From Akkermansia sp. (GTDB lineage: Bacteria > Verrucomicrobiota > Verrucomicrobiia > Verrucomicrobiales > Akkermansiaceae), in NCBI GenBank assembly GCA_030536145.1, contig JAUNQN010000012.1:1-58192 (forward strand): a stretch of DNA of 58,192 nt, read 5' to 3'. Of the stretch, positions 2,416-6,877 are shown one piece after another. Under the pieces are notes generated by a model. It was not told where the DNA came from and ran no database searches. It was given only the letters and a program-made list of their open reading frames with translations. The translations under genes and the position numbers were made by a program. How positions within the stretch are numbered: the stretch's first letter is position 1; each line of letters begins with the position of its first letter.

Positions 2416-2646
2416 ATGAACCATACTCTAACATTGAACCAAGTAAAGGTGGGGCGCGCGGTGCGCGTGTCCTGCGTGAAGGGTGGCGGGCCGCTGCGCC
2501 AGAGAATCCTGGATATGGGGCTGACCGCCGGGGCAGAGGTGACCGTGCGCCGCATGGCGCCGCTGGGGGACCCGCTGGAGGTGCGTGTGCGCGGTTATGA
2601 GCTTTCCCTGAGAAAGGCGGAGGCCGCGTGTATAGAGGTTCAATGA
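2416..2646 (+). CDS. feoA: Ferrous iron transport protein A (FeoA)
   Basis: This 76-residue protein has the SH3-like FeoA fold signature: the RQRILDMGLTAGAEVTVRR stretch near residues 29-47, followed by LGDPLEVRVRGYELSLR. FeoA is a small cytoplasmic partner of the FeoB ferrous-iron permease. The length is normal for the family (about 75-80). It is the first gene of the feo operon, 39 bp before feoB, behind a promoter with a palindromic operator. The leader is A/C-rich with no SD sequence. Confidence 0.93.
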   Translation: MNHTLTLNQVKVGRAVRVSCVKGGGPLRQRILDMGLTAGAEVTVRRMAPLGDPLEVRVRGYELSLRKAEAACIEVQ

Positions 2647-2685: not shown

Positions 2686-5361
2686 ATGAAACGGACGATA
2701 GCATTGGCTGGCAACCCGAACAGCGGCAAGACCTCGCTGTTCAACGAGCTGACAGGCGCAAACCAGTACGTGGGCAACTGGCCCGGAGTGACGGTGGAGC
2801 GCAAGGGCGGGAGCCTGCGGGACCATGAGGAGGTGGAGCTGCAGGACCTGCCGGGCATCTACTCCATGTCCCCGTACACGCCGGAGGAAGTGGTGACGCG
2901 CCGCTACCTGGTGGAGGAGAAGCCGGACATGATAGTGAACGTGGTGGATGCCACGAACCTGGAGCGCAACCTGTACCTGACGAGCCAGCTGCTGGAGACG
3001 GGCATACCCGTGGTGGTGGCGCTGAACATGATAGACCTGGTGGAAAAGCGCGGCGGGCGCGTGGATGCCGCGGCGCTCTCCGCCGCGCTGGGCTGCCCGG
3101 TGCTGGCGGTAAGCGCCCTGCGGCAGACGGGGCTGGAGGAACTCATCTCCCTGTGCGCGGGAGAGCTGCCCGCGGCGGGCAAGCCGCTGGCATACCCCGC
3201 CGGGGTGGAGAAGGCCGTGGCGGAGATACGGGAGCTGTGCGCCTGCAACCGCTGGAAGGCGGTGAAGCTGCTGGAGGGCGATTCCGAGCTGGCCGCCGCG
3301 CTGGATTCCGCGCAGCGCGTGGAGGTGGACAGCCGCCGCGTGGCGCTGGAGAAGGCGGCGGAGACGGACATAGCCTCCATCATCGCCTCTGCCCGTTATG
3401 ATGCCATTTGCGCCGTGACCCCGCAGGTGATAGTCGGCAAGGAGAGCCCGGCGGATGCCGTGTCCGCCAAGATAGATGCGGTGCTCACGCACCGCGTGTT
3501 CGGCCTGTTCATCTTTGCGGCGGTCATGTATGCCATCTTCTACATCTCCATCGGTACCGTGGGAACTTGGGGAACGGACTGGGCGAACGATGTACTCTTC
3601 GGCTCCGTGGTGGCCGGCTGGCTGGGCGGGTTTATAGGGGACACGCCTGCAAGCATGGAGTCCATGGTGATGTTCAGTTCCGTGCTGGGCATGGTGCTGG
3701 TGTTCGGCAGTGCGCTGCGGCGCCTGCATGACCTGGGGCGCAACGGCAGCTGGCTGTACCTGGCGGTGCTGCCCTTTGCCATGGAATACATGTGCCCGCA
3801 CCTGCCGGAACCCGTGCACACGGGCGTGATGTGGCTGCTGTACGCCGCCAATGCGGTGCTGCTGCTGGCCTGCCTGCTGCTGCCCGGCACGCGCGGCGGC
3901 AACAACTACGGCACGGAAACCCCGCGCTTCTGCCGGAATCCCTTCCGCCTTTCCGGGCGCGGCGGCCGCGTGGAGTTTGCCGTGTGGCTGGTCCTGCTGG
4001 GGCTGGCGGCGTACGGCGCGGGGCTGTGCGGCACGCTCACCCTGGAATGCAGTGAGCAGCTCCAAGCCCTGGTGGGAGACGGCTGCGTGGCCGGCGTGGG
4101 CGCGGTCATCGGCTTCCTGCCGCAGATGGCGGTGCTGTTCTTCCTGCTCTCCCTGCTGGAGGACTGCGGCTACATGGCGCGCGTGGCCTTTATGATGGAC
4201 CGCATCTTCCGCACCATCGGCATGTCCGGCAAATCCTTCATCCCGCTGCTGGTGGCCATGGGCTGCGGCGTGCCGGGGGTGATGGCCACCCGCACCATCG
4301 AGAACGAGAAGGACCGCCGCATGTCCGTGATGCTCACCACCTTCATTCCCTGCAGCGCCAAGCTGCCCGTCATCACGCTCTTCGGCGCCATCCTGGGGCA
4401 GGATGCCCTCACCGCCACCATCGCGTACTTTGCCGGCGTGCTCTCCGTCATCCTCAGCGGCTGCATCCTGCGCAAGACCCACGCCTTCGCCGGGTCCTAC
4501 ACGCCCTTTGTCATGGAGCTGCCGGCCTACCACATGCCGCGCGGGGCAAACATCAACCTGCGCGCCATGGAGCGCTGCAAGGCCTTTGCCCGCAAGGCCG
4601 GCACCATCATCTTCCTGGCCTGCGGCCTGGTGTGGTATGCCAGCCACTACACGTGGAACCAGAGCTACCTGCCGGAGGATGACCAGATTGAGGAATCCAT
4701 GCTGGCAGACGTGGGCAACACCGTGGCCCCGCTCTTCTCCCCCCTGGGCTGGGGTACCTGGAAACCCGCCGTGGCCACCGTGACCGGCCTGGTGGCCAAG
4801 GAGAACGTGGTAGGCACCTTCGGTGTGCTGTACGGCACCGGAGACACCGCCGGGGACGAGCCTGCCGCCGCCGGGGAGGATGCCGCCGCAGCCGAGGAGG
4901 AGGACGAACTGCCCGCCACCCCCACGCTCTGCAAGGCCAACGCCCTCACCGCCGTGCCCCTGGCCGCCTACAAGTGCATCTGCGGCGTGCAGGAGCCGGA
5001 AGCCGCCGCCGGGGCGGGGGATGAGGAAGAGGAGGACGACGAGACCACCGGCGTGGCCGCCAACATCAAGTCCGCCGGGGCCTTCAGCTCCCTGGCCGCC
5101 CTCTCCTTCATGCTCTTCAACCTGCTGTGCGCCCCCTGCTTTGCCGCCTGCGGAGCCATACGGAACGAGATGAACAGCCCGCGCTGGACCATCTTCGCCA
5201 TCGGCTACATGTGCGGCTGGGCCTACCTGGTGGCCTTCCTGACCTACCAGCTGGGCATGCTGGCCGCGGGCGGCAGTTTCTGCACCGGCAGCGCCGTGGC
5301 CATAGCGGCAGCCCTCTGCCTGCTGTATCTCATCTTCCGCCGCAACAAATACGCCAAGTAA
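2686..5361 (+). CDS. feoB: Ferrous iron transporter FeoB with DUF805-like insertion
   Basis: GTP-dependent ferrous-iron permease of the inner membrane, 891 residues and longer than usual. The N-terminal G domain has G1 GNPNSGKTS (9-17), DLPG (54-57) and NMID (114-117). The channel domain has the LLEDCGYMARVAF and ATRTIEN gate motifs. Between the first channel helix and the GVGAVIGFLPQ segment (from about 465) lie some 135 extra residues: RLHDLGRNGSW (346-356) and PGTRGGNNYG (400-409), both hallmarks of DUF805, then FRLSGRGGRVEF (about 420), which resembles the DUF805 N-terminal motif. A second insert, about residues 719-797, is strongly acidic and contains three cysteines. Both inserts are in frame and have normal codon use. 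Confidence 0.95.
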   Translation: MKRTIALAGNPNSGKTSLFNELTGANQYVGNWPGVTVERKGGSLRDHEEVELQDLPGIYSMSPYTPEEVVTRRYLVEEKPDMIVNVVDATNLERNLYLTSQLLETGIPVVVALNMIDLVEKRGGRVDAAALSAALGCPVLAVSALRQTGLEELISLCAGELPAAGKPLAYPAGVEKAVAEIRELCACNRWKAVKLLEGDSELAAALDSAQRVEVDSRRVALEKAAETDIASIIASARYDAICAVTPQVIVGKESPADAVSAKIDAVLTHRVFGLFIFAAVMYAIFYISIGTVGTWGTDWANDVLFGSVVAGWLGGFIGDTPASMESMVMFSSVLGMVLVFGSALRRLHDLGRNGSWLYLAVLPFAMEYMCPHLPEPVHTGVMWLLYAANAVLLLACLLLPGTRGGNNYGTETPRFCRNPFRLSGRGGRVEFAVWLVLLGLAAYGAGLCGTLTLECSEQLQALVGDGCVAGVGAVIGFLPQMAVLFFLLSLLEDCGYMARVAFMMDRIFRTIGMSGKSFIPLLVAMGCGVPGVMATRTIENEKDRRMSVMLTTFIPCSAKLPVITLFGAILGQDALTATIAYFAGVLSVILSGCILRKTHAFAGSYTPFVMELPAYHMPRGANINLRAMERCKAFARKAGTIIFLACGLVWYASHYTWNQSYLPEDDQIEESMLADVGNTVAPLFSPLGWGTWKPAVATVTGLVAKENVVGTFGVLYGTGDTAGDEPAAAGEDAAAAEEEDELPATPTLCKANALTAVPLAAYKCICGVQEPEAAAGAGDEEEEDDETTGVAANIKSAGAFSSLAALSFMLFNLLCAPCFAACGAIRNEMNSPRWTIFAIGYMCGWAYLVAFLTYQLGMLAAGGSFCTGSAVAIAAALCLLYLIFRRNKYAK

Positions 5362-5398: not shown

Positions 5399-5554
5399 AT
5401 GGGAAATATCATCGTCATTACCATACTGGGCGTATTTGCCCTGCTGGCCCTCCGCTCCTGCCTCCGCAGCAAGAGAAAAGGGTGCAGCGGGGGCTGCGGA
5501 AGCTGCGGGGGCAACTGCCCCTGCCACCGCAGCAAGCCCCAACTGCGGCACTGA
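5399..5554 (+). CDS. FeoB-associated Cys-rich membrane protein
   Basis: This 51-residue ORF has one membrane helix at residues 3-18 followed by a basic, glycine/cysteine-rich tail with CSGGCGSCGGNCPC spacing. This matches the small FeoB-associated Cys-rich proteins found after feoB in other phyla, in the place of FeoC. It starts 37 bp after feoB and runs in the same operon. The cysteines could bind iron or an Fe-S cluster; this is inferred. Confidence 0.85.
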   Translation: MGNIIVITILGVFALLALRSCLRSKRKGCSGGCGSCGGNCPCHRSKPQLRH

Positions 5555-5614: not shown

Positions 5615-6877
5615 ATGAACCGCAACCACATACTCGCCATAGCCGCCGCCATGCTCACCCTGCACCCCCTGGCCGCCGATGAAACGGATGCCAAGTGGGG
5701 GGATATCCTGGACGGTATCCTGATGTTCACCCCGGAGGAGGGCGACCCCGCCTACAAGAAGGCTGCCAACGAGAAGTACGGCACCCAGTGGGGCGTGGAC
5801 CTGGGCTATGCCTACTGGGGCACCCACCGCGCGCAGGGCGGCACGCCCAACCGCAACCACAACTACGCCCTGCTGCATGCCCAGCTCAACCAGCGCATCA
5901 TCAAGGACGACACCAACGGCGGCACCTGGATCCGCGCAGAGCTTTCCGGCACCTGGGGGCTGGACAACCGCTCCGCCAGCAGCGCGTATGACATGGTGGG
6001 CGGCACCGGCGCCACCTTTGAGCCGCATGTGGATATCTTCGGCCCCCACGTGGCCGGCCTGCCGGAGCTCGCCGTCATGCAGTACCTGCAGGGCAAGCGC
6101 ATCTGCTTCATCGGCGGCATGGTGAACCTCACCAACTACTTCGACGGCGTGAGCGTGGCGAACGACACCTTCTCCTCCTTCACCAACTCCGGCCTTACCA
6201 ACTCCAAGGTGCTGCCGCTCACCTCCTGCAACAGCGCCTTCGGCGCCATCCTCATGGGTGAGCTCAGCCCGAACGACTACGTGATTGTGGCTGCCGCCCA
6301 GACCGGCGGAGACTTTGCCCAGGGCACCAACCCCTTCCGCACCGCCAACAAGGACGGCTACGCCATTGTGGGCGAATACGGCCATATCTTTGCGGACGGA
6401 GACGCCACCCTGCGCATCAACCCCTTCTACCGCCGCTTTGATTCCAAGCAGTTCGACGGCGAGGACGCCCGCAACCATGATTCCGCGGGCATTGCCGCCA
6501 GCATCGAGTGGAACGTGAGCGACCGCGTGACCGTGTTCTCCCGCGCCGGCTGGGCCGCCAAGCAGCAGTACAGCACCGCCGCAGAGTGCACCGTGGGTAC
6601 CCATATCAAGCTCTTTGCCGGCAGGGAGGACGATTTCCTGGGCCTGGCTGCCGGCGTGGCGAAGGGCCAGTCCCCCTACGGCGAGTATGATGAGGAGACG
6701 GGCGAGCCCCTGGGCGGCAACAACCACCGCCGCGAGTACATGATGGAGGCCACCTACAATTTCCAGGTGAACGACTACATGCGCATCATGCCCCATTTCC
6801 AGTACATTTCCCGGCCTTCCTATTCCGCCCTTAGTGACGAGACGGTGTTCGGTGTCCAGACCGTCTTTTCATTCTGA
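5615..6877 (+). CDS. Outer-membrane porin (OprB-like) of the feo locus
   Basis: A 420-residue protein with an N-terminal signal peptide (cleavage probably after LAA near residue 21) and a C-terminal phenylalanine, as expected for an outer-membrane beta-barrel. Many alternating aromatic strands (GVDLGYAYWG, WIRAELSGTWG, YMMEATYNFQV) and the FGAILMGEL/INPFYRRF layout resemble carbohydrate-selective OprB-type porins. It lies 60 bp after the small Cys-rich gene and before a terminator, so it is probably the last feo gene. A role in letting iron or its ligands cross the outer membrane is inferred from position only. Confidence 0.75.
   Translation: MNRNHILAIAAAMLTLHPLAADETDAKWGDILDGILMFTPEEGDPAYKKAANEKYGTQWGVDLGYAYWGTHRAQGGTPNRNHNYALLHAQLNQRIIKDDTNGGTWIRAELSGTWGLDNRSASSAYDMVGGTGATFEPHVDIFGPHVAGLPELAVMQYLQGKRICFIGGMVNLTNYFDGVSVANDTFSSFTNSGLTNSKVLPLTSCNSAFGAILMGELSPNDYVIVAAAQTGGDFAQGTNPFRTANKDGYAIVGEYGHIFADGDATLRINPFYRRFDSKQFDGEDARNHDSAGIAASIEWNVSDRVTVFSRAGWAAKQQYSTAAECTVGTHIKLFAGREDDFLGLAAGVAKGQSPYGEYDEETGEPLGGNNHRREYMMEATYNFQVNDYMRIMPHFQYISRPSYSALSDETVFGVQTVFSF

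Follow-up and report, generated by a model that had tools for sequence, protein, structure and literature searches.

How does an iron importer come to carry, inside its membrane part, a module of another family with the two halves of that module in exchanged order? The question is raised by a FeoB gene in a stretch of 58,192 nucleotides from Akkermansia sp. (assembly GCA_030536145.1, contig JAUNQN010000012.1; the whole stretch is referred to here as the window), for which the original prediction, made from the letters alone, had proposed that the first channel loop of FeoB holds a module resembling DUF805 (Pfam PF05656). On the sequence evidence, both halves of DUF805 are present in this loop and their order is swapped, well above what chance would give, and we regard the insert-bearing protein as a new variant of FeoB. 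The open reading frame, residues and motifs lie where they had been noted (R346-W356, P400-G409 and G424-R425-x2-R428-x-E430-F431), and the span first given for the module, 3640-4075, was correct to about 35 bases. The features of the gene are as follows, in window positions and FeoB residues (TM, transmembrane helix).

2686..5361, + strand: FeoB, 891 amino acids, carrying the insert (FeoB_N 1.1e-65, Gate, FeoB_C, FeoB_Cyto; TIGR00437 3.6e-157)
3493..3636, + strand: FeoB helix 1, residues 270-317, exceeding one membrane span (AlphaFold model)
~3643-4041, + strand: permuted DUF805 module, residues ~320-452 (profiles, alignments and controls; 133 residues more than empty-site FeoBs)
3655..3732, + strand: insert helix a, 324-349, equivalent to DUF805 TM2, with the RRLHD signature (345-349) at its end (profile alignment, AlphaFold)
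3751..3792, + strand: insert helix b, 356-369, equivalent to DUF805 TM3 (AlphaFold)
3784..3819, + strand: loop E367-x2-C370-P371-H372-x5-H378, predicted periplasmic, with candidate metal ligands (conservation counts)
3808..3879, + strand: insert helix c, 375-398, equivalent to DUF805 TM4 (AlphaFold)
3883..3912, + strand: PGTRGGNNYG (400-409), the C-terminal DUF805 signature (conservation)
3913..4038, + strand: DUF805 N-half, 410-451, standing behind the C-half and holding GRxxRxEF (424-431) (hhalign)
3967..4035, + strand: insert helix d, 428-450, equivalent to DUF805 TM1 (AlphaFold)
4054..4167, + strand: following FeoB helix, 457-494, marking the return to the ordinary FeoB fold (AlphaFold; Gate domain from residue 475)

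Homology of the insert to DUF805 and the order of its halves

The GTPase, Gate and FeoB_C domains stand in the correct order, all above curated cut-offs (Pfam, TIGR00437), and the window FeoB shares all its domains, the upstream FeoA and the downstream Cys-rich protein with known FeoB, which lacks the approximately 133 extra residues and four predicted helices between the first two FeoB helices. Across 87 aligned FeoBs, the span of residues 305-466 comprises 162 residues in 37 of the 45 insert-bearing proteins (159-167 in the other eight) vs 29 residues in 39 of the 42 insert-free ones (42 in one, and 149 and 148 in P0148 and P0149, respectively), which sets the usual insert length at 133 residues. 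Over window columns 320-447 all 49 usual-length inserts have 128 residues, these being the aligned copies out of 56 found in the genus, with at least two incomplete proteins (L101 and L131); over the wider span, other homologues are a few residues longer or shorter. Three long inserts, from genomes G004, G289 and G263, have 226, 231 and 225 residues over the same columns.

Against a gathering cut-off of 25.7 bits, the Pfam profile PF05656 matches the whole FeoB at 37.4 bits (E-value 4e-9); for residues 312-485, the insert region by itself, the score is 51.5 bits (E-value 1.6e-13), over profile positions 48-110, that is, the C-half. A protein search with the insert region scored 41 relatives, the window's own included, all of which have both FeoB and PF05656 domains. 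Eight residues are invariant in 33 stand-alone DUF805 proteins (R18, R21, W25, R57, H59, D60, N128 and G131), and 49 of 49 usual-length inserts keep seven of them unchanged (R425, R428, R346, H348, D349, N406 and G409 in window numbering); the Trp of GRxxRxEYW, the eighth, is out of register, 44 of the 49 having a Trp two positions further on. The position equivalent to DUF805 R21 (R428) is V in all three long inserts, and R345, R346, H348, D349, G401, N406, G409 and R425 are kept in 52 of 52 inserts. The identification of the module as DUF805 is thus borne out both by a profile match above the Pfam cut-off and by the retained invariant residues. The insert has in common with DUF805 the R/R, RxHD and NxYG signature residues and the helix pattern, the latter judged by eye from predicted secondary structure against one stand-alone member; it is unlike DUF805 in its TM2-TM3-TM4-TM1 order, in having no helix ahead of the GR motif and no free ends, and in its own loop of E367, C370, H372 and H378 (E/C/H/H loop) and displaced Trp.

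The order of the halves was assessed by profile-profile comparison (hhalign). The C-half profile matches that of 28 stand-alone DUF805s with a probability of 97.8 and a score of 71.2 over columns 56-116, and the N-half alone, as a 49-row profile, matches DUF805 columns 9-41 with a probability of 95.3 and a score of 43.6. The unaltered insert scores 76.5 vs 108.0 with its halves placed in natural order (probability 99.05). In a control with 200 column shuffles of the N-half, scores had a mean of 10.5 (standard deviation 2.1, maximum 17.8), and when 105 sliding segments of 46 residues were compared along FeoB, scores above 17 arose solely inside residues 305-470, where the matched DUF805 columns were 37-95, then 98-123, then 8-42. 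The best Pfam stretch likewise runs from position 2 or 3 to 110 in four of four rotated inserts and from 50-54 to 110 or 111 in four of four unrotated ones, two of which have a second Pfam stretch. The C-half-then-N-half order suggested at the outset agrees with these results; since the insert does not have the N-half-before-C-half order of DUF805, we class it as a permuted derivative of the family and not as an ordinary member.

The signal of the N-half is fainter in individual proteins. Two 42-residue N-half pieces had no Pfam match, and a hidden Markov model (HMM) of the N-half reached at best 15.1 bits on 52 inserted FeoBs (-2.3 on the window itself), its best match falling in the insert tail in 51 of them and on the C-half in the exception, L039; among 19 insert-free FeoBs, 13 gave a match at all, the highest being 5.7 bits (L057, close to the C-terminus). 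Hydrophobic helices might resemble DUF805 by chance, with no homology or no permutation, and it fits such a view that single sequences give no significant N-half match and that Pfam gains just 1.8 to 4.0 bits upon rotation; the profile controls, the hhalign rotation gain and the seven retained invariant residues nevertheless make a chance resemblance very improbable. We also considered an ordinary-order DUF805 that borrows FeoB helix 1 as its N-half, as the Pfam alignment starts at residue 307 (profile position 24); this was ruled out because residues 300-319 align in insert-free FeoBs too and the N-half profile matches within residues 401-470.

Predicted helices and topology

An AlphaFold model of the FeoB (87 sequences, mean predicted local distance difference test (pLDDT) score 86.0, predicted template modelling score 0.73) places the four insert helices between FeoB helices 270-317 and 457-494, with block means of 86-97 pLDDT across the insert. 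The mean net charges of the successive loops in 47 FeoBs are -2.8, +1.2, -1.3, +5.2 and -1.0, which we read as out, in, out, in, out, a pattern that fits an insertion keeping the FeoB topology. The N-terminal G domain of FeoB is cytosolic according to a 2025 paper (PMC11920956), and because of this and of the loop charges we place both ends of the insert and the b-c loop outside, and RRLHD and NxYG...GRxxR inside. The four modelled helices and the alternating charges accord with the earlier expectation of about four added helices, an even number that leaves the topology unchanged.

For comparison, a model of a stand-alone DUF805 of the same genome (AlphaFold, 33 sequences, mean pLDDT 84.7) has helices at residues 2-14, 21-38, 40-45, 47-60, 66-89 and 94-120; beyond the last C-half helix, both predicted structures show the same bridge joining the invariant N to the invariant G (128 and 131 in the stand-alone protein, 406 and 409 in FeoB). 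Across 28 stand-alone DUF805s the N-terminus has a mean charge of +2.9 and the RRxHD loop +1.9. A sequence search for a solved DUF805 structure (one query) found none, a fold search with the stand-alone model, covering non-viral libraries, gave no match at an E-value of 0.001 or below and none convincing by VIA-align, and the best 50 fold matches of the FeoB model were nearly all G domains or other GTPases, so that no function could be read from the fold. The window's genome also has a row of neighbouring DUF805 genes (L018, G000:C36:15000-17850), in which GYF_2, a cytosolic domain, precedes DUF805 in three of three scanned proteins, with weak zinc-ribbon matches in two of them.

Distribution and origin of the insert

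Among 76 Akkermansia genomes, 55 have the usual insert, three the long form, and 11 an orthologous FeoB with an empty site; in the remaining seven, several of which are incomplete, no FeoB of this type was found. The genome of the window has a second feoA-feoB pair on another contig (L017, G000:C17:21000-30000), whose FeoB is 64% identical and also bears the permuted module, matching the DUF805 profile at positions 27-110 with 35.9 bits and then at positions 2-66 with 12.5 bits (below the cut-off); it is the only one of the 76 genomes listed with two module-bearing FeoBs. The long-insert FeoB of G263 (L127, G263:C1:865000-868800) is split over two frames, by either a broken gene or a sequencing error.

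The genus of these genomes follows from the labels of matching public records: 50 of 53 loci carry the name Akkermansia or Akkermansiaceae, two "uncultured bacterium" and one Verrucomicrobiales, and the titles often point to the gut of goat, sheep, cattle, buffalo, deer, horse or rabbit. In 387 genomes of the phylum (at most 10 candidates scored in each), no match outside the genus resembled the inserted FeoB, and four partial matches had E-values of 2e-6 to 4e-6 in frames no longer than 398 residues; the distribution searches reach close relatives, and an independent case elsewhere is possible. By title, every one of the 53 matching named records is a metagenome bin, as would suit an assembly chimera or a binning artefact. 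We regard the likelihood of such an artefact as close to negligible, given that in 55 genomes the insert occupies the same position within a single open frame and that the long form occurs in three more, of which G004 and G263 are single-contig assemblies (the gene being split in G263).

To examine the history of the insert, we relied on trees of FeoB with clostridial-type outgroups, the named outgroup rows being Firmicutes. In a tree of 31 chosen rows with the insert excluded, 13 usual and two long inserted FeoBs fall on one side of a branch with 100/100 support, opposite six empty-site FeoBs and 10 outgroup rows; most usual-insert rows, including the fast and incomplete L101, were omitted from it. 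A quick tree of 74 rows gave support of 99 to a group of 29 usual and three long inserted FeoBs. Loss in the no-insert group, or a second gain, was considered and set aside, as the inserted FeoBs fall on one side of a branch when clostridial outgroups are used. The simplest reading of these trees is that the module was likely gained once in Akkermansia.

The source of the swapped order may be sought in tandem proteins of the same genus. Of 11 loci with a match to the insert model outside FeoB, six (L192-L196 and L202) encode a single protein with two head-to-tail DUF805 copies; four of these come from empty-site genomes and two from long-insert genomes, and usual-insert genomes contribute none. 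Starting at TM2 of the first copy and ending at TM1 of the second gives the order of the insert, although these proteins hold two complete copies, lie outside FeoB, and include no copy similar enough to be identified as the donor. A tandem copy that lost its ends, one of the two origins originally suggested, is thus a concrete route by this comparison, in which the permuted piece would come from a tandem DUF805 trimmed at either end; circular permutation and a trimmed tandem would give an identical product. A donor search over 43 scanned proteins found no DUF805 clearly closest. In the 22 best-scoring rows, alignments of the insert's C-half that reach its end are confined to Akkermansia DUF805s whose TM3-TM4 region is long (19-28 bits), but a canonical DUF805 (L088) has the second-best score, 26.2 bits, from a short alignment, and other DUF805s are the better matches of the N-half. 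A tandem second DUF805 was also tried as the cause of the long inserts in G004, G289 and G263 and rejected, since their extra sequence is acidic and forms the loop that joins helix b to helix c. At a further locus (L197, G344:C3:52000-55400), a DUF805-like membrane part is followed by apparent ankyrin repeats (by eye) in one frame of 599 residues.

Topology suggests why the swapped order would suit this site. A stand-alone DUF805 of this type would have both ends in the cytosol and would be unfit for a periplasmic loop; opening it at the periplasmic TM1-TM2 loop and joining the old cytosolic ends would leave both new ends in the periplasm, and such a module could enter the FeoB TM1-TM2 loop with the topology undisturbed. 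Natural circular permutation is rarely documented in helical membrane domains, and the nearest precedent we found is that of VKOR and DsbB (PMC4555120), which that 2015 paper calls the first report to relate helical membrane proteins that are distant. That case also concerns a permuted four-helix membrane domain, explained there by duplication and loss of the outer parts, and joins two ancient separate families related by structure; unlike it, the FeoB permutation is visible in sequence, is embedded in another transporter, and has a relative with an empty site within the genus. The FeoB case thus combines a permutation seen in sequence with an empty-site relative, a single likely gain, and tandem proteins that possibly resemble the intermediate. 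A search of the open-access literature found no work joining DUF805 and FeoB or describing this insert.

What the module may do

Our tentative reading, which we hold to be possible though somewhat short of probable, is that this swapped-order DUF805, likely gained once and adding four predicted helices to FeoB, provides a candidate Fe2+-receiving site for the pore. E367, C370, H372 and H378 would bind Fe2+ at the outer mouth and hand it over to the Gate region, and the cytosolic signature (R345, R346, H348, D349, N406, G409 and R425) would hold the module together or touch the FeoB G domain. In the usual inserts, E367 is kept in 49 of 49, C370 and H372 in 48 of 49 each, and H378 in 49 of 49; the full E-x2-C-P-H-x5-H pattern occurs in 47 of 49 inserts vs none of 43 other DUF805 proteins. 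The three long-insert FeoBs have A, V, N and Y at these positions and a loop of 100-106 residues, 20-22 of them acidic. In P0148 and P0149 the same outer loop is extended by about 120 unrelated residues that lack DUF805, with 32 acidic residues per 134-135 counted, and by this acidic insert the first outer FeoB loop seems to accept insertions repeatedly. Three kinds of outer-loop addition, each rich in potential ligands or acidic residues, would fit the collection of Fe2+ at the mouth of FeoB. The 2025 paper (PMC11920956) remarks that no Feo protein is periplasmic, so that FeoB may itself attract periplasmic Fe(II), and that FeoB's metal-binding regions are still to be elucidated. A bolder form of the proposal, which we consider doubtful, is that DUF805 was permuted to periplasmic ends as the sole order allowed by topology, and that the E-x2-C-P-H-x5-H loop is a dedicated Fe2+ receptor that Feo otherwise lacks.

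Several results weigh against Fe2+ collection by the module. The E/C/H/H residues are lost in the three long-insert FeoBs, in which the cytosolic signature is kept, and this signature is the most constant part of the insert; the conserved Cys and His could moreover be structural. That 11 of the 76 genomes have an empty-site FeoB suggests that the module is dispensable for iron transport as such. The tree without the clostridial outgroup puts the long-insert FeoBs beside the no-insert group with support of 86, which would be a different history, and the cytosolic C-terminus of stand-alone DUF805 rests on helix parity because the C-tail has a charge of -0.9. DUF805 itself is a bacterial membrane family of uncharacterised proteins, for which the Pfam description gives no function. 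The insert is also less conserved than the FeoB core, with a mean top-residue fraction of 0.66 vs 0.81 in the G domain and 0.91 in the first Gate part (0.58 in the cytosolic helical part of FeoB), and its ratio of nonsynonymous to synonymous substitution rates (dN/dS) exceeds that of the rest of FeoB in 59 of 66 pairs.

The constancy of the cytosolic side invites a different explanation, in which the module serves assembly or regulation, its conserved cytosolic face docking the G domain, FeoA or a second FeoB, with the periplasmic loop being secondary. Because the cytosolic signature is kept in all 52 inserts, including the three without the E/C/H/H loop, we find such docking plausible and nearly as likely as Fe2+ collection. 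All of these residues except R345 are among the invariants of the 33 stand-alone DUF805s, and FeoA adjoins FeoB at both loci of the genome. Contact between FeoA and FeoB has been reported to depend on nucleotide in a natural fusion (PMC8980893); these fusions are likewise FeoBs with a natural added domain, but join soluble FeoA to the N-terminal G domain, whereas in the window FeoB a membrane module lies within the transport domain. The same residues may, however, merely hold the four helices together, empty-site FeoBs appear to manage without the module, and we know of no DUF805 partner. The insert could also be a neutral passenger that fitted the loop by chance, was harmless, and has been retained since it now aids folding. 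The lower conservation and higher dN/dS of the insert and the empty-site FeoBs are in keeping with this, yet in all 66 pairs more than 80% identical the insert has a dN/dS below 1 (0.05 to 0.59; 38 proteins, pairs non-independent), 22 of 128 insert positions are invariant across 47 FeoBs, and the outgroup-rooted trees place no empty-site FeoB within the inserted group, so no loss is seen; we judge a neutral passenger unlikely. The genus offers iron biology a natural experiment in which the same importer occurs with and without the module, and the tie of DUF805 to a transporter of known substrate makes the function of the family testable.

The genes on either side of feoB are as follows:

2416..2646, + strand: FeoA, the upstream partner gene (Pfam FeoA 1.3e-22)
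5399..5554, + strand: FeoB-associated Cys-rich protein, downstream of FeoB (PF12669 1.1e-9)

An OprB-type porin gene stands directly after the feo genes, at window positions 5615-6874. Within FeoB itself, residues 716-795 (window 4831-5070), which precede the last conserved membrane part, form a poorly conserved stretch with 20 acidic residues and three Cys per 80.

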